From: Saccoglossus kowalevskii | Lineage: Eukaryota; Hemichordata; Enteropneusta; Harrimaniidae | Direction: 5' to 3' | Length of the DNA: 40,826 nt | NCBI RefSeq assembly: GCF_000003605.2 | Contig: NW_003146776.1 | Span: 63,400 to 104,225, forward strand | In this document: piece after piece, positions 5,501 to 23,600 of the stretch | Layout of the letters: every line of letters starts with the position of its first letter | How positions within the stretch are numbered: the stretch's first letter is position 1 | Position numbers and translations under genes: made by a program | The notes under the pieces: generated by a model | What the model was told of the DNA's origin: nothing | The model's database searches: none | What the model saw: the letters and a program-made list of their open reading frames with translations, nothing else

Positions 5501-6185
5501 AAGACTAGTATTAACTCATGAATATGCATTATACTGGTCATTTACTCATGAATATGCATAGTACTGGCCTTTTACTCATGAATATACATAAGACAAGCAT
5601 GAATATGCATAGATACTGTCTTTTACTCATGAATATGCATAAGACAAGCATGAACTCATGAATATGCATAGATATTGGCCTTTTACTCATGAATATGCAT
5701 AATACAAGCATGAACTCATGAATATGCATAGATATTGGCCTTTTACTCATGAATATGCATAAGACAAGCATAAACTCATGAATATGCATAGATATTGGCC
5801 TTTTACTCATGAATATGCATAAGACAAGCATGAACTCATGAATATGCATAGATATTGGCCTTTTACTCATGAATATGCATAAGACAAGCATGAACTCATG
5901 AATATGCATAAGACAAGCATGAATATGTATAGATACTGGTCTTTTACTCATGAATATACATAAGACAAGCATGAATATGCATAGATACTGACCTTTTACT
6001 CATCAATATGCATACAACGAGCATGAATATGCATAGATACTGTTCTTTTACTCTTGAATATGCATAAGACGAGCATGAACTCATGAATATGCATAGAAAC
6101 TGGTCTTTTACTAGTGAATATGCATAAGACGAGCATGAACTCATGAATATGCATAATACCTGTATTTTACTCATGTATATGCATG
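5484..6185. repeat. Minisatellite of about 25 ATGAATATGCAT-like units (60-bp higher-order unit)
   Basis: The core ctcatgaatatgcat recurs about every 30 bases. Two diverged 30-bp halves form a 60-bp unit; the four units at 5641-5880 differ from each other by only about two substitutions. Because 60 is a multiple of three, the minus strand shows long but purely repetitive open frames with a 20-residue period, which I do not regard as genes. The core is one base from the palindromic POU-dimer element ATGCATATGCAT. Confidence 0.95.
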
Positions 6186-7579: not shown

Positions 7580-8662
7580 TTATATTTTAAGAGTTTTCTG
7601 GTTTTCCATCATGTCTTTCAAACGAGAAAGATATTCTTCGTCTGTCACCATTTCCTGGTTTCTATGTTGATTTGGGGATTGTTGAGGACGAGCGTAAAGC
7701 GGGTTGCTGGCATAGTGGTTTGCAATCGGGGCAGTTCGTTGAGGTTGTTGTCGTTGTCTGTGTTCAGGTGACGGATTTGTTACTGCATGGGGATTGGCAA
7801 AACAATGCCTTGGTTGATTCGCCTCAGGATGTTGTAGGACAGTCAAACCCTCATCGTCCCAAGCATATTCCCCACTTTCTTTATCGCTCGGCATGTACGG
7901 TTGTTGTAGCGTTTCAAGAAGAAGATTTGGAATGGTGTTATCATCACTACTTGATGATGAATCGCTAGCGCTACTTGATGAATCACTATCTGATTCGCTG
8001 GCATTAGTTGTTACATCGCCATCATTGGTGTAAACACTACCGTCTTCAGCCTCAGCCAAGGAAAAGTCGTTGGATCCTACTTCAAATGAGTCTAGCATGG
8101 GTCGTATAAAGGCATGTTCAGGTACAGGCTCATCTGGTTGTTGGCATAGATAAATATAGCTATCATCAAGATTGCTGTCTTGATCTTCCTCCTCAGTTTC
8201 AGCTACAGGCATGCGTGGCATTTCGTCTTCTAGATCTGAATCAGTCTCGTGGATTGCAAGATTCATTCCATTATGCAAGGGTGCGTTCACATCATTTTCC
8301 CCACCGCTCTGATTATACATGTTATTGTGATCCGGATTGGCATACGACGGGTTGATAGACTCGATCGTTAATGGAACGTCCTGAAGTGGAGAATGTGTTG
8401 GACTATATGAGTGATTTCTAAAATTGTGTCGAGGACTGCTTTGATGAACGCGCTGAGGGCTGCCACGATGGCTGCTGTATGGACTGTTGTTGCTATGCCG
8501 ACTACCAAGACTGTGATGTGGACTACCATCTCCATAGCAACCATCTGGTGATGCCTTATAGGCGGAGGATATTCCGCTATTGTGTGAGAGGGGACAAACA
8601 AATGAAGTTTCCTCTTCTCGCTCCAGTTCATCTTGTACGTCATCTGGATCGTTCTTCATAGA
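7580..8662 (-). CDS. Neuregulin last exon: cytoplasmic tail
   Basis: Acceptor ctttctgttctcttag; phase 0; 360 codons, stop TAA at 7582-7580. Residues 350-709 of the short isoform. Counting from the first Met of this exon: EREEETSF at 13-20, serine/histidine-rich repeats with SP motifs to about 95, NPSY at 103-106, acidic stretch 139-165, serine-aspartate tract 221-240 (likely CK2 substrate), NPLY at 319-322, and C-terminal EEYLSRLKDMMENQ, which resembles the C-terminal EEIQARLSSVIANQ of NRG1. The two NPxY motifs are potential PTB-domain or endocytosis signals. No catalytic domain. Confidence 0.9.
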   Translation of the reverse strand, partial: SMKNDPDDVQDELEREEETSFVCPLSHNSGISSAYKASPDGCYGDGSPHHSLGSRHSNNSPYSSHRGSPQRVHQSSPRHNFRNHSYSPTHSPLQDVPLTIESINPSYANPDHNNMYNQSGGENDVNAPLHNGMNLAIHETDSDLEDEMPRMPVAETEEEDQDSNLDDSYIYLCQQPDEPVPEHAFIRPMLDSFEVGSNDFSLAEAEDGSVYTNDGDVTTNASESDSDSSSSASDSSSSSDDNTIPNLLLETLQQPYMPSDKESGEYAWDDEGLTVLQHPEANQPRHCFANPHAVTNPSPEHRQRQQPQRTAPIANHYASNPLYARPQQSPNQHRNQEMVTDEEYLSRLKDMMENQKTLKI

Positions 8663-11600
8663 CTAAGAGAACAGAAAGAGAAAATTAATCAATTCGTAAA
8701 TTTTTTTTTTTTATCAAACAGCGGTTTTCACAATGCTCACTCAGGTGCACTGCATAGGAATAAAACCAACCTCATTCAGGGCGACTCACCTACTTACCCC
8801 ATTCAAGGGCTATTACCTGTATTGCAGTATATTAATCCTCATTCAGGGGCCACTCATATGCATTAGTGGGTAACAAACCTCATTCAGCGGCCACTCACTT
8901 GCATTGGTGTATAACAATCCTCATTCAGGGGCAACTCTCTGCATTGCGGTATAATAATCCTCATTCAGGGGCCACTCGCCTGCATTGTGGTATAACAATC
9001 TATATTCAGGGGCTATTACCTGTATTGGTATATAACAATCCTCATTCAGGGGCCACTCACCTGCATTGGTGTATAACAATCCTCATTCAGGGGCACATCT
9101 CCATTAATCCTATTTACAGGATATGTCATCAATTTTTCTTTCTCTTTTTCCTTCTTTCTCTTTTCTTTTTCCTTCTCCTTTTGCCTTTTCTGGTATTTTT
9201 TCTTCCCAGTCCTGAAAACAGAAATTTGTCAAACAAGAAAAGTATGAATACATACTCTAAGGCACTAAAAAAAACAACTGCCAGGTACTAATCAGCATAT
9301 TATGTAACTCCACCTACATTGTGTAAAGACATGAACATAGTGAAACAATTGTGAGCTTGCCATCTGTAAAACTGAATTAATACCTGCTTGGTCATAAATC
9401 TTAAAAGATGATGGTCACATGTTCAGTTCCTGATTTCTAATTGTGCAGTACCCGAACAAAGAACGCATTTTACATGTGTTGTACAATACCCATATTAAAC
9501 ACTACATTTCATGACGATCGCCACCCTTCAAGATAGTAAGTTTGAAACTTACAGACTAGCACACCAATCACAATAGATGAAATACACATTACACCTTGTA
9601 AATGCAAGAATTGGACTTTTTTTACAGCATTATCAAATACTCCACCCAGGAGATTTAAACATGTGTCAAAAACCCAAGGGCAGGGTGAGAGCTCTACTAT
9701 CAATTTATATGTGGACACTGTCAAACTCCTCAACATCATGGCAATTCAGAATCCTGTTTTAGATTAGTTTTTTGTGCCATAGCACTTATTTGAATTTTGC
9801 ATAAGAAATGCATTTTGCACATATTACATATGTTGCAGGGGGCCCACATCAAACACAAAGCGGTGAAACAACTATGGCACTTAAAATCAATGCATCTGGA
9901 AATATGTCTTTAGAAGTTTTCACACATCTTGTTAAAACATCACCTGCTGGAAACCTTTATAGAAATGAATGGGGAAACAAAATAGTGCCAGCAAGTGATA
10001 TGTTAACAACGACAACATGCTAACAGTTTTAGTGAAGATAATAATGCTTCAACCTGTTTATACCAATACTTAATCTTAGATTAAAGTGGGAGGGTCATCA
10101 ACTGCGACGATAACAACACACGCTAAAACACAAAAGCTCATGGGTAGACGCTCGTTTGTAAACAATGACACGCTATGGCCATCTGACGCATACGCAGGTG
10201 ACAACTCCCCCGCTTTAATCCTCAAAGCGACAACATTTTCGTACTTGACACTTGTTGGATTCAACGCATGGGACCCATATAAAACACCACACAGTGCAAC
10301 AATCTGCGGTGTATCATCACTGGTATTACTTATATAAGAACTTGTTAAACCACCTGCTCAAAAAAATCCCTCCAGCAAAGGTAAGGCTGACACAATTTTA
10401 TGAGATGAAAGTTTCAACATGACTGGAAACCTACAAAGGTTGTTGTATTGAAAGCCAACAATACCATGGAGCTGCTCAATAACAAACCAGCTTTTCAGAA
10501 AACAAGTCTCAGCTTAAGCTTAAGCTTGCTCTATAAATGGTACCCACCCTCTTTGAAAATGGAATGTTCCAGAACTATTAAAAGAAAGAGATTATTTTTA
10601 TTACCATATAATATTTCAAAATCTGGCCACCCACCTAGATGACAAAACTCTTATCAGCCACCAAACAAAGATATATTTCAGTTCTTAGTGTCCTGTACAT
10701 TGCCATTAGTCAATTCTTTGCTTTGTTTTCTAAAAGTCTAAAAACCTGGAAAAAGTTGTTAGGGACATGTTTTAAATGAGCATGCACCAGTAATTTAAAT
10801 AGTTTTTTCTGGGTCTGACAATTTATACCAATGGGGTCAAAGGTCACTCGAGAAGCAAATGAGTGGGTTGTCATTTATTTATAAATATTCCTATTCTTAA
10901 TACTTTGAGATCATTCTTTATTGGGGCTTGAGACTATTGTGTAAAATAGTTTCTGATCTGTTGAGCCGTGGTCGTCACACTACATTGTGTTTGATATAGG
11001 ACTCTTGGCAATGTATACATATGTTAAATACATTGCTTACACAGAATTTGAACATGCCCTGCATAACAACCACCAATATTTAATAAAGCTATAAAAATTA
11101 AATAACTATAAGATCACTTCCTGCCACAATTATGAAAATCGTGAACTATTAATAATTCAAAAACAAATTTGGTTTTGCCAAAAAATAGTTCCAAACGCAT
11201 TTTATTATGTTTACTTAATATGTGGACGATGAATTCAAGCTTACAGTTTTTAGTTTGAACTTTGAATTTTTTATTTGTGAAGTCAATTGTCAATCACCAG
11301 TGAAGATAGCCATGTAGAAAGCGGCCATTTTGATAATGATGAAGACAACCGTAATTGAAACGAAATCTAATAAATGTACAGTATTTGCTCATATAGTAGC
11401 ATGCACTCACTAAATGACAGGTTTGGGTTAAAATAAGTCTTAATGTAACAATCCAGCATGCAATACTGTAGAATACTTTATTTTCGCTTGGAATTTATTT
11501 TCGCTGAAGGGATGATTCAGTGAGAATAAAATCCAGCGAATATACTTTTTTTCCTATACTTCACATTAAACTCATCAAAAAACAGTGAAAATAAATTCCA

Positions 11601-14600
11601 AGCAAAACGCCCAAAAAGCCTTTTCAGCGAAAATTAATTCCAGCGAAAATAAAGTATTCCACAGTATATGAAATTTTTGTTTTAAATGTGCTTTTATTGG
11701 AGTTGCACTTCTAATAGTTTAAGAGCAAATAGGGTGACAGTTATTTTCCTATGGATGGATATAATTTCTTATTGATTTTGATCAGCAACGTTTTGGAAAG
11801 GGAACAATAGATGACTTTTCCAATCATGTGTAGATTGGGTAGACATGTTGTTCTAACAGGAANNNNNNNNNNNNNNNNNNNNNNNNNNNNNNNNNNNNNN
11901 NNNNNNNNNNNNNNNNNNNNNNNNNNNNNNNNNNNNNNNNNNNNNNNNNNNNNNNNNNNNNNNNNNNNNNNNNNAAAAGATGTGTCTAGTTTTAAAAATA
12001 TCCTAAAATTGGAAAATTAATGATATTGCCGCGAAATAGAAAAATCTGGCAGAGGCCCACCTAAGTTTCAAAGACATTGGGCGGGTTAGAAGTGGAAAAT
12101 GTTGATGGATGACTGGCGACGAACAATCACCTATATGAACGTATCTGTTCTATCATCTTAGATGACATGAAGCTAATAAAACAGTTTAAAATACAGGCAT
12201 GTTAAGCTTGCAAAGTCATTTTCAAAAAAGAGAAGGTAGAATTTGTCGTTAACCTTCATGCATTGTATGAACCAAATTCTAGATGCAGTTTGAAAGTTGA
12301 AGGATATAGGATTAGGACACTGTTATAGTAAGGCTTGTTACCCATTTATACCCGGTGCTTATAGAAAAAAATGGAATAACAGATACAATAGAATACATTA
12401 TTTTCAGTGGGAATTATTTTTTCTGTCCCCCCACCCTCATTGTTTGTGTATAATTTATGACATTATCAAACAGATAGTGGATTTGGAAGACAAACTACAG
12501 GCATGTTAAACAGAACAGAGTCAGTAGAATACAAATACAAACAAAATATACATATTTATTTTATAAAATTGACAACCTAGGATACAAAAATAAAATGTAC
12601 ATCACAAACAAAAACATTAGTAGTTAGAGAATTGTCATGGTTGTAACCATGGCAACATTATTGTTGATCTATACAAGTTCATGAGAGTATTCATAGGTAT
12701 GTAGATATGCAAAAGTTCACTGAAGAGAAAATAGAGATGTAACTAAATAATGATGTATTTTATAAAAAAAAAAAGAGCTTGAAATGCTGGTTTGTAGTTT
12801 AAAAAAAAACTAATTTAAATTTTTGATATTTATCTGTAATGAAATAAACCAGTTAAATTAAGCTTTCTTGAATGTCGTCAAACAACCATTATGATTTAGT
12901 TAGACATTTATAATCGAGGATCAATAAGTAACGATCTGTTGATTGGCAGTTATTTGATTATATAAAACAAAAGACCGACCACATTTTCAATTGGTCAGAA
13001 TGCATCACATGATCAACCGATGATTGAGTGATTGGTCAGAATTCATCACATGATCAACCGATGATTGAGTGATTGGTCAGAATTCATCACATGATCAACC
13101 GATGATTGAGTGATTGGTCAGAACTCATCACATGATCAACTGATGATTGGTCAAACAATGCAATAAAGAAGCATACTCTTTTAGAAGAAAGAACACCTCA
13201 ATTTTTCTCTTCTTTGAACCTAACTTTTTTACGTTTAATTTTAGTTATTTCAAAATACTGGCAAGAAACCACGGTTGGGACTTCACATATAAAATTATAA
13301 TATATACAGGGCACAAGTGTATTAAAGTGTAATAAATAAATAATCATCTATACGATACTATTACTACTACTGGTGGTAAGTATTTTAACACAATAACCAA
13401 GAGGATTATCATCCAAATAATGGATTTCACTAATTAAATTTAAATTAAAACAAAAATATCAAGAGTTTTCCCCATCAAGCAAAATCGTACTACAATTAAA
13501 AATAACAGAATCATACTTTGGGGGTTTTTCTTCTTAAAATAACCCTCATTTTAGTTTTGTGTCAGTTACCATTCTCAAAAATAAATTGAATAAGCTAGAA
13601 AACACAATATTTAAGAAATAAAATAAAAATTATAATATTTTGGTAATGGTAATAAAGAACCTATTTATATTAATAAATTATCACCTGTTGGAACACCTGG
13701 AAAATGGACACATCATGAAAGTGGATTGAAACAGAGACACCAGTGAGCTGTATAAAAAGTTATACTGTAGACTGGGCTTGGAATGAAAAGCAGGTGCAGG
13801 TGTACACCTCTAAAACTGTCAATGCCGGGAAATCAAATAATCCATGCTGTAGCGTTACTTTAACAAGTTGATATGTACATACTGAACAGCACCAATTTAT
13901 AAAGTATGTAGACAATACAACATTTGGAGCAATATGTAGACTTTTATGATTTAAAATAAAATTTAGAAATAAAATTATACCTCTACCATATATGCTCCAA
14001 TTAGTAGCACATACTAATATGTAAATGACAGATGTTTCTAGGGTTACAAATGGTCATATTTCAAAGATCTAGCATTTAATAAATGTAATTTTGGGTTTAT
14101 GTGCGCTTCTATTAAAAATGCACTTCTAATAGAACAAATATGGTATCCACAACCCTCGTCATTCCCCCGTCTTTCCCACCCCATTATTTTAGTGAGCTAC
14201 ACCGGAGTGGGCTCGATGGGCTCAGTAGTCCGCACAGAGTAATGAGTACAATTATGATCTGACCTGCAAATAGAAAGAAATACTTTCTTTATTAAAAACA
14301 AATTCTAAATGAAAAATTTTTGACACTTTGTAATGTTAGATAGATGACATCTTGAGCAGTTATTCAAGAGCAAAATTCATTATTCATGGAATAATCAATT
14401 ATTTATGAGCAGGATTCACTATTCATGGCAATAATCAATTATTCATGAGAAAAATAGAATTATTCATAAGAACGGTAAATTATTCATAGGTGAAAATTCA
14501 TTGAGTGTGTGTACTACTATAATAATGAAAATTTACAATGACAGAGGAATATCAACCGACGAATAAGTCGATGTGACCACATTCAGCAGGGTATCGTCTG

Positions 14601-17600
14601 ACAAAGAAGTCAAAAAGTCCATTTTTATTATACATCTTCTCAATCTTAGTGCATAACAAAATGTGGTGATTGACACATACACGAACATTGCACTTTTACT
14701 ATTCTGCCATTGTGGGACACAGTCATAATGTAACTCACAGAAGATATGCCGATACATATTCTATAATACTATAAAACAACAACAACAACGCGCAACCACT
14801 GCTATTCGTTTTTTTTATTTTTCGCTGAAATTGCCAGTGCTACCAAGATGGTCAGACACACAAGAAGTGTCAACTTGTAAGCTCAGATCTCTTCTAACCT
14901 TTTTACACACAAAAATGACCAACACAAAAAACAAACAGTAGAATAAATCTAAAACTTGGAGAGCCAACAAGATACTGGTACGAAATAACATCACATTCAA
15001 CAGCCAATGGTTAAACCACATGTAGTCACATGACACGTAATAGCCAATTAAATCACAGCTACATAAACATTCACAACCACCATAAATAAAACACACAAAA
15101 ATATCACAATATAAGCAACCAAAGGTTATTGTAATGATTAGTAAGTTGGGAGCCAATCAATGCTGCCTGTATTGATCATGTGACCATCACATGACCGTGT
15201 GCAAGTCATTTGATTGGCTTGGGCGTTCTCACCTGGCTTTGCACCATGCTATGATGCAGATGATGATTAGAACCAACAAGGCAACAAAGATTCCGACAAC
15301 GGTAAGAACTCGCTTCGCTTGCAACTGTTCTGCATCTGAATACGCAAAACAACAAAAACTAAGTGTAAGCTAAAACACAGAAAGGTGATTAAGGTTAAAA
15401 AAAAAAAAAAACATGCAGGGGAGGTGGTAAGCAAAATAACATTGTTAAAATATCCATGCCTTGTCTATCAAAGTAAAAATCAGTCCTTCATGCAATGCAA
15501 TAAGTAATAAGGTTTCATAAATATGTTGATTAAAAAAATAACATTAACTTTACAAACGAGAATATACATACAAACAAAAAAAAACTACAGAATACGAACA
15601 GGGAACAAAGAACATAATTCATAATACAAGCAAATAAAAAAAAAACTGAAAAAAAAACACAGCATACATTGAATATGATTCCCTAACTACGTCTCCGATG
15701 CTTGAGATTTTTTTTCCAATTTGCTTGGAAGAGAGTCCACGTGCCAGGGATATACCATTTTATATCCAGGGGTGATAGGGGTGGAATTGAGGCACTTACC
15801 TTCTCTAGTTCTTTCAACATGGAATGGATCCTTATACTGGCATCTTGGTCCGGTATGCGGCGCTGGACAACTGAAAACAAAATGAACAAAAAAGGTGTGC
15901 CAGATTAGAACATTTTTGAGGAGGTGCGCAATTTTACCAATTTGCAAAAAAAAATTAAATAAATAAAGTGCGGTCAGAAACCACCTTTAATACCTTATAA
16001 GAAGCAATGGGGGGGTGGTATTGAAGTCAGACGATAAAACAAAATAGTTAGCTTTAAATTATGCATATAATTAAAACACCACTTAATAAAAATGAATATA
16101 TTAAGTATATACATGTATCTCCATTTATGATAGAGTTTGTTAGCTAGAAACAAAGTAGTGCATTGAAAAAAACAAAACAAATAGTTTATTTTATTATTAC
16201 TATTAACATGGAGCAAAATAAATTAATTAAAAAAAAATTGCTTTAATTATTATTTTTCCTTCTTCAGACAAGAATCACACAGTTTTCTTTTATATGAAAA
16301 AATACTTTATTCCAATAAAATAAATTCCACTGGCAAAAGAACCTGCCACCAAAAAAATTTCAAACTGTAAGATAAAATGAAGATCTTTATAAACTCTTTT
16401 TATACATAATGTAATAATATGAGGCATGGAAAAAATGCACTGTAAACTGCTCAACCTTTTCATCACCAGTTCCCTCCTTTTACAACAAATTCACAATTGT
16501 TTATAGATTGAAACAAAAATAGCCAAATTTGTTTTGAGTAAAAACTGAAAACTGACTCAAATTTTGTCTGTTGGCTTCAAAGTTATGGTTTATTTCCAGA
16601 AACATTGAAGAATATAAGAAAAAGTGCAGACAAATTTGGGCAAGAGGTCCAGTGGTGAAAAGGTTCAATTGCGAGAGACTGATCTGACGTTGGAATTCAA
16701 GATAACATTCTGCAAGACAGGGTTTTTATGATGTGCAGTCCTAAAATCAAATCCAGATCCAGCATGAATAACTCAAGAATAATGCAACTTGTTAATTTCA
16801 ATTATGGATCAAAATGGCACCAGTTGAAAATCAAACAGCAACTTTATAATAATTTATACAGTGAACCCTGGTTTATCATCCTGTCCAAAGAAAAGAAAAA
16901 ATGGAATGCCAGCTATGAACAAGCAACTTTAGAATACCACTGGGGCAGTCTCTTTGGAAATATTGTACAGGTACCACAAGCTGCTCCGAAGAAATTAACA
17001 ATGACGAATCTGTATTAAGCAAGTTGGATAGAGGAGAGGTACGATAGGGAAAAGAATTTGATTCAACAGAAAAGTTTTCAAACCCTAGACCACCCCTCCC
17101 CTCTCCAAAATTTAAACGGCAGATCCCTTGCATGAAAGTCTAATCCGAGGTCAGGTGGAATGACCTCTAATGAAGTATAAATGACACAAATTATATAATT
17201 ATTAAGTTTTATCAAATATGTGATCATTTTAAAAGAATTTTTTTTTCTATAATGTAAAAGTCAACATCCTAATTGTAAAATATATTCAAAGGCTAATGAT
17301 TAGAAAATTTATATTTGATAGTTTGTACCAAAATATTCAAATGTGAAAATAAACAAAAGGGTAGCCAGGCTTGTTTCCATGGACACAGAGTTATGTGCCA
17401 AAATTTAGGAAGCGGAGTATAGTTTGACATTTTTTTTGGTTATTGAAATATGTTGCTGCCCAAATTTGAGATAATAAATTTTTTTGACGTCTAATTTCAT
17501 TATCGTAAAAAGTTCAATTTTGGTCACATCCGTGTGAGGAATGAAGTACAGAAAAACAATTAAAGCCAGGAAAAAATTTAAATTAGGGAAAGAATCAATG

Positions 17601-20600: not shown

Positions 20601-23600
20601 AAAATACTATAAACATACTATAATGTTACCATAGCAACATACAAATAATACAATATGTGTCATGTCATAGTTCATGACATAGTCATTACTGGAGGAAATA
20701 AGGAACACAAATATTTATACAAATATTTACATTAATAATAATAATATTGAATTGCACACATGTCAATAAAAGAAAAAGTTCTGTCTGGCAACCATGAAAA
20801 CGAACATAAAATAAGTCCAATTTGTCCTTAACTATTCTCAATAAGAAAAAAATAGTTGGAAGGCAACAAGACACAGAACCAAACTGCCAAGCAAAAAACA
20901 TTTCAGGCCCGGCCTAAGAAAATACTGTTCTCATTTCAGCTCAGGCCTTTTGCCACAGATTTTTATGTCAGTATTTTTCAATTGTGATCCATAACCCCAA
21001 AACGATAATAAATAAATAAATAAATAAATAGTAATAAAATATAGAAGTTCTCTGTCCAAAGAACAAGAAGTTTTTTAGGCCAAGTCCACAATTTTGAGTT
21101 TCCAGCCATGAAATTGCATTTCACAACTACCCAGTCTCTAGCTAAAACAACAAACTTTTGCAGTTCTACCAGTTGTAAATAAGAGTTAAAAGGGGATCGT
21201 TTGAAAAAATGTTTCAGACAGAGACAGAGAAATATAATACATTAGATAGAAACAAAGACTGTCACACAGCCATAAGAAGATTTGTGGTGGAGCATCACAT
21301 GCTCATCACATGCTCATCACATGAACAACCAATGACAAATTCAGAATTGAATAGGTAATTTGCATAATTGTAATTGTTGTTCTGGTAACCAGAAATGACG
21401 GCTATTGAAGAACAAGTAATTTCATGACTGAAAATTACCCATTACAGAAATTAATTTTTCCATTATTATGACAAAATGTCCTTTCTTTGCCTTCCTTGGA
21501 TTCTTGGGACGTTATCTATTGCAATGTATTCTTGATTTTCCCAACTTTCAGGGAGGGCTACATTCTACTTACTTGCAGACAATCTGGTTAATTTCATCAA
21601 GGAACTCGCATGTACCTCCATTTAAACAGTAGTTGCAGTTTTCACTTGAGTTACCAGAGTGCTTGCCTCCCGGCTTAGGATACTGGCACCTGTGGCCGTT
21701 ATAATTCCGCTTACACCTGTGAGGGGGGTTGACGAGATCAGAAACTGGGCCGCACTACAACTACCCTGATTCAGGGGGGCACTCTATAGACCCCTTAGGT
21801 TATAGCAAAAAAGCAAACCTGCGCCAAATCAGCTGTTTTTTAAGCATAACGTGAATAAGGAACAGGAGAATTTTTATTTTCCAACAAATTCTTCAATTTA
21901 TGTCAATCATTCCAACCACACTCTGTTCCAAGCAAAGTGCATGCTACCTTATTTTACGATTAACCAATCCTGTTCTATGCTTACAAAAGTTGTCATTTTC
22001 ATTTGTCTACCCACTTCCCTACCATTTCTATAAGCACCTAGGGGGTCCATAAAGGGAGGGTCAATTATAGTGCTGGCAACATGCAAGAGTTAAATAACAG
22101 TAAAACAAAAGAAAAAATGCAATGCGTGGAGAATTTTTTCTGAACACACAAATAATGATATTCCATGCAGTTACAAAAGCATAACATATTCAATACAATC
22201 GATTTGTTTTGCCTTGTTTTAGTTTTTCGTATCTTGCAAAAGAAACTACAACAGAGACCATCACCAGAAAAGGGTCAAGACAGCATGCAGGAAGCAGTCA
22301 AAAAAAAAAAAGTGGTGGTGAAGTTGAAGCATGCGTTGTTGTTTTTTTGTGTTGTTAATTAGTTTTCTCGTATTATGTTTTGTGGTGTATTTTTGTTGTC
22401 ATTGAATTCTGAACTTTCAAAGTATAACATAAAAGACATACACATGCAGATGTTACTAAGCAAAATACAGTTGGTAATATCAAGGCAACAAACCACAAAT
22501 TAAAAATTTCAAGCAATATGCAGATGGGACAGGTGAAGTGGGTAGAATGAACATAATCAATTTTTGTAGTTGTTGATGGTAGCTAAATTGCAGTTCCCAG
22601 TATTTGATCTCAAGTCATTTCACCTCACAGTGGGAGACTTGACAAAATTCAAGCTTGCAAAGTGAGCACGATCAATGATAAGCAATGTCTGAACCAAGTC
22701 TCAGGCCACAAGACGTAACTTTCAAACTATGAAGACTATAGACAATAACTATGATGGTGCCTTTTAAAACAAGCCAACACCGCATACCATGAAAAACATC
22801 ATTTGACTGTACCAGTCCCAAAAAAATAGCGTCTGAAAGGCGGTGTATTGGTAAGCTGAAAACAAACACCAACTCCTTATAATATATCATCGGAATTGAG
22901 TTCTGTTGCTTTGTGGGCACAAGGAATAAATAACCAACAAACACACAACTCACGAAAATGTTAAACAAGTAAAAAAAAAAACGTGTTTTTCCTCAAATTC
23001 TGGAGCAATCAAAAAATTAATGATATGAATTAACATGTATCAATGAGGAGAATCTAATACAGTTTAAATTCATTCAATTATAATGTATTGTGAATTTTTT
23101 TTGTTTTTTTCAAGGGAAGCAATCAATTAACCAAATGATAAATTGAGAGCCAGTTTTGCTAGCAAGATAGACACATCATTTCCATTGATTAAAAAATTCG
23201 CTCAACACATCATGGTGTGCTGTTGACTCAATACTGCCCTCTTGTGTTTGAGGGGCGCCCTCTAACAGTGAAGTAAAGCACAAGAGTTAGGATTCTTTTA
23301 TTTTGTTAGTATTGACATTTGCATTTAAGAGAAAAGTGGATACTACCCCTCCCCCACCCCGACTCCCAATCTTTAGCTGTCTTATTGAAAAGACTGGTTA
23401 ACCTTTTGACCTTTAACCCTATGACGCAACGTCATCTTTCACAAAATTAAATCTCTGCAATTTATCCCACACTTTTAAAAAAAAAAGTTTCAAAACCTGT
23501 AGGTAATGGGAAATTACATCCAAGAAAAATAAAGAATATTGTGCACAATATTGCATACACATTTTAGCGGGAAACAATTAGACATTATAAAAGGTTAACC

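Follow-up and report, generated by a model that had tools for sequence, protein, structure and literature searches.

A probable mirage-type minisatellite across a predicted 5' splice site of a neuregulin-like gene in Saccoglossus kowalevskii

In Saccoglossus kowalevskii, a tandem array of a 41-bp unit was identified which extends across the predicted 3' edge of a lysine-rich exon of a neuregulin-like gene and continues into the following intron. The stretch of DNA that was analysed, here called the window, comprises 40,826 nucleotides of contig NW_003146776.1, and all positions given below are those of the window. Since the unit spans an exon-intron boundary and many, but not all, of its copies keep splice signals, the array would by definition belong to the mirages. 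It is very probable that this is a mirage-type array in which splicing takes place at the donor at 9060 and the intronic copies are near neutral; most likely, the array is inert.

The minus strand of the window holds the 3' part of the gene, consisting of Ig, EGF-like, transmembrane, lysine-rich and last coding exons (Table 1). By the combination of Ig, EGF and a transmembrane segment the gene looks neuregulin-like, and ligands with these three elements occur across bilaterians (PMC4914847). At the last four junctions, where the exons were joined by prediction, the open frame is kept and the ends are GT-AG. The joined halves of the membrane-proximal EGF-like domain matched EGF chains in the PDB with a best E of 2.6e-7, heregulin alpha following lower in the list with 1.7e-4, and reached 16 bits against Pfam EGF, which is below the cut-off of 21.5; the EGF-like exons further upstream are all below the Pfam cut-offs. 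With E values of up to 10 admitted, the Pfam scan gave no row for a neuregulin domain. For comparison with NRG1, a stretch of the human protein served as reference, and 300 shuffles were used. The score was reached by none of the shuffles for the transmembrane exon and by none for the EGF exons, by 3 of the 300 for residues 1-80 of the last exon (with the LEREEETSF segment) and by 47 for the last exon as a whole. The lysine-rich exon gave nothing above chance against the NRG1 stretch (156 of 300 shuffles), and is predicted from its frame, its acceptor and its place in the gene.

Table 1. Features of the neuregulin-like gene and of the exon-edge array (a slash marks the splice junction; scores are U1-match scores)
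Feature	Positions	Strand	Remarks
First Ig piece	33648-33502	-	I-set 38.1 bits, Pfam cut-off 23.7
Second Ig piece	32626-32519	-	placed by eye; no Pfam row
EGF-like pieces	25.6 kb, 24.7 kb, 21.6 kb, 15.8 kb	-	
Exon, first half of membrane-proximal EGF-like domain	21573..21691	-	5' end of exon not fixed
Exon, second half of membrane-proximal EGF-like domain	15800..15870	-	
Transmembrane exon	15233..15335	-	DAEQLQAKRVLTVVGIFVALLVLIIICIIAWCKA; assigned by eye and from its likeness to NRG1
Lysine-rich juxtamembrane exon (predicted)	9061..9211	-	TGKKKYQKRQ...PLNEDCYTPMQ; acceptor tttctgttttcag/G
Last coding exon	7580..8662	-	360 aa, presumed cytoplasmic tail
Intron	8663..9060	-	398 nt; acceptor ttttctctttctgttctcttag
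Intron start at predicted donor	9052..9060	-	GTGAGTGGC
Predicted donor	9060	-	CAGGTGAGT; score 8.5
In-frame TGA	9046..9048	-	reached from any distal donor or by retention; VSGP, then stop
Copy c1	9053..9093	-	33 nt exonic and 8 nt intronic; identical to c1-c7 consensus
Intronic copies c2-c9	8749..9052	-	by TRF and register alignment
Full-length intronic copies c2, c3, c4	starts 9052, 9012, 8971	-	40-41 nt each
Full-length intronic copies c5, c6, c7	starts 8931, 8890, 8849	-	40-41 nt each
Copy c5	8891..8931	-	40/41 identical to c1; sole difference donor -1 G>A (CAA/GTGAGT)
Truncated copies c8, c9	from 8809, from 8783	-	26 nt and 35 nt
Distal donor-like site 9019	9014..9022	-	CAGGTAATA; score 7
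Distal GC-type donor-like site 8979	8974..8982	-	CAGGCGAGT; score 7.5
Distal donor-like site 8898	8893..8901	-	CAAGTGAGT; score 7.5
Distal donor-like site 8816	8811..8819	-	CAGGTAATA; score 7
Distal donor-like sites 8797, 8789	8784..8800	-	GGGGTAAGT, score 7.5; TAGGTGAGT, score 8

On the same strand, a putative alternative terminal exon was seen by eye at 14263-14197 (acceptor tatttctttctatttgcag, then SDHNCTHYSVRTTEPIEPTPV and TAG, in the phase of the transmembrane exon); if real, it would be a simpler source of a short tail than the array. On the plus strand, the window contains pieces of a cytochrome P450 gene (895-2256), the first of which has its closest PDB matches in CYP17 chains and the second of which passes the Pfam p450 cut-off. 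The G+C content of the window is 33.6%, that of amphioxus about 41%; the low value would speak against amphioxus as the host.

Alignment of the copies in register revealed that the unit runs head to tail on the minus strand from 9093 to about 8749. The unit is composed of 33 nt of the exon end and 8 nt of the intron (CAG/GTGAGTGG), the last 33 nt of the lysine-rich exon being part of c1, and the copies comprise one exonic, six full-length intronic and two truncated intronic ones. TRF called the array at 8834-9094 with a period of 41, 6.4 copies and 79% matches. The stretch at 8748 was unconvincing as a tenth copy, with 50% identity to c1; without the array copies, about 86 nt of the intron remain. 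With a unit that spans the boundary at 9060, the proposal of the first-pass annotation that a 5' exon-intron boundary had been amplified as a minisatellite was borne out, as were its 41-bp unit, its roughly eight intronic copies and its intron of 398 nt. The existence of the array within the limits given there also stood, but its end lies nearer to 8749 than to 8773. DNA searches of the assembly (572 Mb, very common words and some stretches being outside the search) matched a single place, the array's own locus, both with the intron plus exon and with the array alone as query. Capture of a dispersed repeat at the edge of the exon is unsupported, since within this scope the array query matched that one place.

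The exonic copy is the consensus of c1 to c7, and the exon edge is therefore the likely source of the array. Identity is 88% between c2 and c7, which share changes, including a GTAATA donor, and 98% between c1 and c5; these likenesses fit block duplication or conversion. While c2, c3, c4, c6 and c7 differ from c1 by a mean of 6.4 changes in 41, c5 carries a single one (Poisson p 0.012, c5 having been chosen after the data were inspected). Decay would be insufficient to explain the nearly unchanged c5 unless a recent exchange had occurred, and the array may be read as an old one in which blocks were duplicated and c1 and c5 later exchanged sequence at least once. According to the preferred explanation, a 41-bp segment astride the 3' edge of the lysine-rich exon would have been duplicated in tandem, presumably by slippage or unequal exchange, and would have expanded to about nine copies, partly as multi-unit blocks. 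Splicing would have been retained at 9060, the first donor met, which keeps the reading frame and has the best U1 match; since splicing stayed there, the later copies would have turned into intron and decayed, and we infer that they are near neutral.

Three other minisatellites are present in the window, at 2500-2723, 5598-5910 and 12990-13149, with units of 55, 60 and 41 bp and 97-98% matches. They are probably far younger than the exon-edge array, and probably better candidates for length polymorphism. On the plus strand, a stop-to-stop frame of 151 codons (8836-9291) runs through the exon-edge array and is probably a by-product of the repeat.

Donors were ranked by a simple U1-match score with a maximum of 9. 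The site at 9060 (CAG/GTGAGT) has the top score and is the only one to reach 8.5 on either strand of the window. Donor-like sites are kept in five of the eight intronic copies (c2, c3, c5, c7 and c8) and lost in c4, c6 and c9. In a stretch of 315 nt which includes 9060, seven GT sites score at least 7, compared to 0.76 per kb on both strands of the window, so that the density of donor-like sites in the array exceeds chance. The scan recovered all five distal donors listed in the first-pass annotation (9019, 8979, 8898, 8816 and 8789), while the list proved to be incomplete, a sixth site at 8797, which is off the unit's own donor position, having been overlooked.

A function for which the intronic donors were kept finds no support in their sequences. 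All six full intronic copies have lost the exact donor, and changes were no rarer in the donor columns than in the others (10 of 54 cells versus 23 of 192, p 0.26), so that selection preserving these donors is unsupported. Counted as distinct changes, the figure was 8 of 26 (p 0.19). Within the G/GT core, 6 of 18 cells had changed, compared to 27 of 228 outside it (uncorrected p 0.021, Fisher test); these comparisons comprise six copies and ignore their shared ancestry, and the excess may be taken as a weak sign that the core decayed faster than the rest of the unit. Sequestration of U1, also proposed earlier, would involve few and mostly weaker sites in one transcript, and would act at most in cis.

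The eight distal sites that score at least 6.5 would all yield one product, in which VSGP is followed by the TGA, in agreement with the stop after four added residues that had been predicted before. This results from the unit length of 41, which is not divisible by three, and from the CCCCTGA at the beginning of the unit. Mis-splicing at a surviving distal donor would thus meet a stop five codons on. With the stop located in the first intronic copy, the protein made from a distal donor would be the same at any copy number, and the idea that copy number tunes the product does not hold; what varies is the distance from the stop to the junction, which is 26 nt for 9019, 66 for 8979, 147 for 8898, 229 for 8816, 248 for 8797 and 256 for 8789. 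By the 50-nt rule, a stop less than 50 nt from a junction would escape NMD, so that a stable short-tail mRNA would be expected from 9019 or from retention only. When segments from an AG to a donor scoring at least 6.5 were enumerated, four candidate mini-exons proved to be in frame and free of stops. One of 36 nt (8934-8899, LPLNEDCYTPMQ), larger than the other three, uses c5 and would lie between an intron of 126 nt and one of 236 nt. The residues PLNEDCYTPMQ are intact in c5, whose single substitution, CAG to CAA, is silent.

These distances could be taken for a regulated switch, in which 9019 or retention gives a stable mRNA that lacks the 360-residue last exon, and the other donors lead to NMD and set the level of the gene. 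The stop 26 nt from the junction of 9019, compared to 66-256 nt at the other five sites, would suit such a switch, as would the scores of the distal sites (7 to 8 of 9), the shortness of the 398-nt intron and the C. elegans minisatellite over-represented near alternative splicing (PMC4039745). However, 9060 outranks all these sites, the distal donors have degenerated and show no preferential retention, and the mirages examined by others are reported to splice normally (PMC3087553, PMC3902484); a switch of this kind is improbable. Still harder to credit is a micro-exon in the making, in which splicing would include c5 as an in-frame exon of 36 nt that repeats the last residues of the lysine-rich exon. 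The segment is in frame and free of stops, c5 keeps PLNEDCYTPMQ with one silent change, and intron gain from mirages has been modelled in print (PMC3087553). But the AG at 8935 follows a pyrimidine fraction below 0.55, compared to 0.94 for the real acceptor, further AGs precede it by 2 and 4 nt, and its donor would be CAA/GTGAGT. The exchange between c1 and c5 explains c5 equally well, and with three other in-frame mini-exons in the same enumeration the one in c5 may be due to chance. It is very improbable that these elements act together as a splicing module, in which the full tail comes from 9060 and a stable, tail-less form ending in VSGP from 9019 or retention, the more distal donors lead to NMD, and c5 is an occasional micro-exon. 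If this were true, c5 would duplicate PLNEDCYTPMQ and add a second Y-x-x-M, and a mirage would have been turned into isoform control, possibly outside the cephalochordates.

Selection against decoys, by which intronic donors were broken since strong copies harmed splicing, is compatible with the preferred explanation, and is unlikely, though it deserves to be weighed. The excess of changes in the G/GT core would speak for it and hints that the copies are not purely neutral. Against it stand the absence of a correction from that test, the six copies with their ignored common descent, the higher p values for all nine donor columns and for distinct changes, and the sites at 8797 and 8789, which are still fairly strong. 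The mirage-type array with splicing at 9060 agrees with a unit made of exon end and donor, with an exonic copy equal to the consensus, with the locus being the only match within the scope of the assembly searches, with the loss of the exact donor from all full intronic copies beside a top-scoring 9060, and with the shared anatomy and reported regular splicing of the amphioxus mirages (PMC3087553, PMC3902484). What fits this explanation less well is the almost undecayed c5, the origin of the cited mirages from amphioxus, and the link of an intronic minisatellite to alternative splicing in C. elegans (PMC4039745).

Of the window, 2563 bases (6.3%) belong to arrays with periods of 10-200. A density sample of 20 further 10-kb stretches, mostly contig starts and thus non-random, gave 15 readable stretches, six of which were almost wholly satellite; with these six excluded and the window included, arrays make up 7,746 of 121,974 readable bases. 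At this density an array over some boundary is not improbable, although selection on exons would thin such cases, and one of four donors checked in the neuregulin-like gene lies inside an array. Three tandem CAGGTRAGT motifs with gaps of 20-50 were matched 325 times versus 38 for the reversed pattern, nearly all of the matches listed being on two contigs, and with gaps of 44-64 they were matched 60 times on 13 contigs versus 230. Since one array can contribute many matches and the two reversed-pattern controls disagree in direction, neither enrichment nor rarity of donor arrays was concluded. One contig (C1113, 15.9 kb) carries a 41-bp repeat with CAGGTRAGT in successive units over at least its first 7 kb. 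Another array dense in this motif is located at C998:891602-892515; no exon was seen by eye upstream of it on the donor strand. Among other families in the assembly, 135 pieces match sialyltransferases (PF00777), many of them grouped together on shared contigs. A large expansion of this family is thereby suggested, and the number of pieces would fit an invertebrate deuterostome.

With vertebrate neuregulins, the gene shares Ig, EGF-like and transmembrane segments and a long tail, and its transmembrane and EGF exons resemble human NRG1, whereas its whole last exon aligns no better than chance. We know of no exon-edge array of such a kind in vertebrate NRG genes, and none was reported for any neuregulin gene among the matches listed in a literature search that left most subscription papers outside.

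Tandem copying of a whole boundary had been called unusual in the first-pass annotation. However, minisatellite-like tandem repeats spanning exon-intron boundaries were described in amphioxus as mirages, and PMC3087553 and PMC3902484 name Adh3, troponin C, the globins BflGb6 and BflGb9, and PGBD5, the last added by PMC3902484, in which troponin C is cited. Unit lengths range from 10 to 72 bp in Adh3 and are about 150-160 bp for the globins, either the 5' or the 3' boundary may be duplicated, many but not all copies bear AG/GT signals, and regular splicing is reported to proceed without interference (PMC3087553, PMC3902484). The array described here has in common with them a tandem unit across a boundary and splice signals in many copies; it differs in its 41-bp unit, its 5' splice-site boundary and its neuregulin-like host, and in being known from DNA sequence alone.

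A model of intron gain from mirages was put forward in PMC3087553, and intron gain through tandem duplication was described for proto-splice sites in Drosophila (PMC2891723) and for the potato RdRp gene (PMC4974935). There, too, a sequence with AG/GT was copied in tandem and one copy turned intronic. In contrast, the unit in the window already holds intron bases, so that the intron would have pre-existed and the event would have lengthened it rather than created a new one. In a survey of C. elegans, one intronic minisatellite was tied to, and over-represented near, alternative splicing, which implies that intronic arrays need not be inert (PMC4039745).

The neuregulin-like gene joins the short list of genes with boundary-spanning minisatellites named in the papers cited here, and with a host other than amphioxus the mirage phenomenon would be widened. 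Arrays of this kind offer a natural test of how the spliceosome chooses a donor among near-identical tandem copies, and of how an intron grows when a duplicated exon edge is turned into intron.
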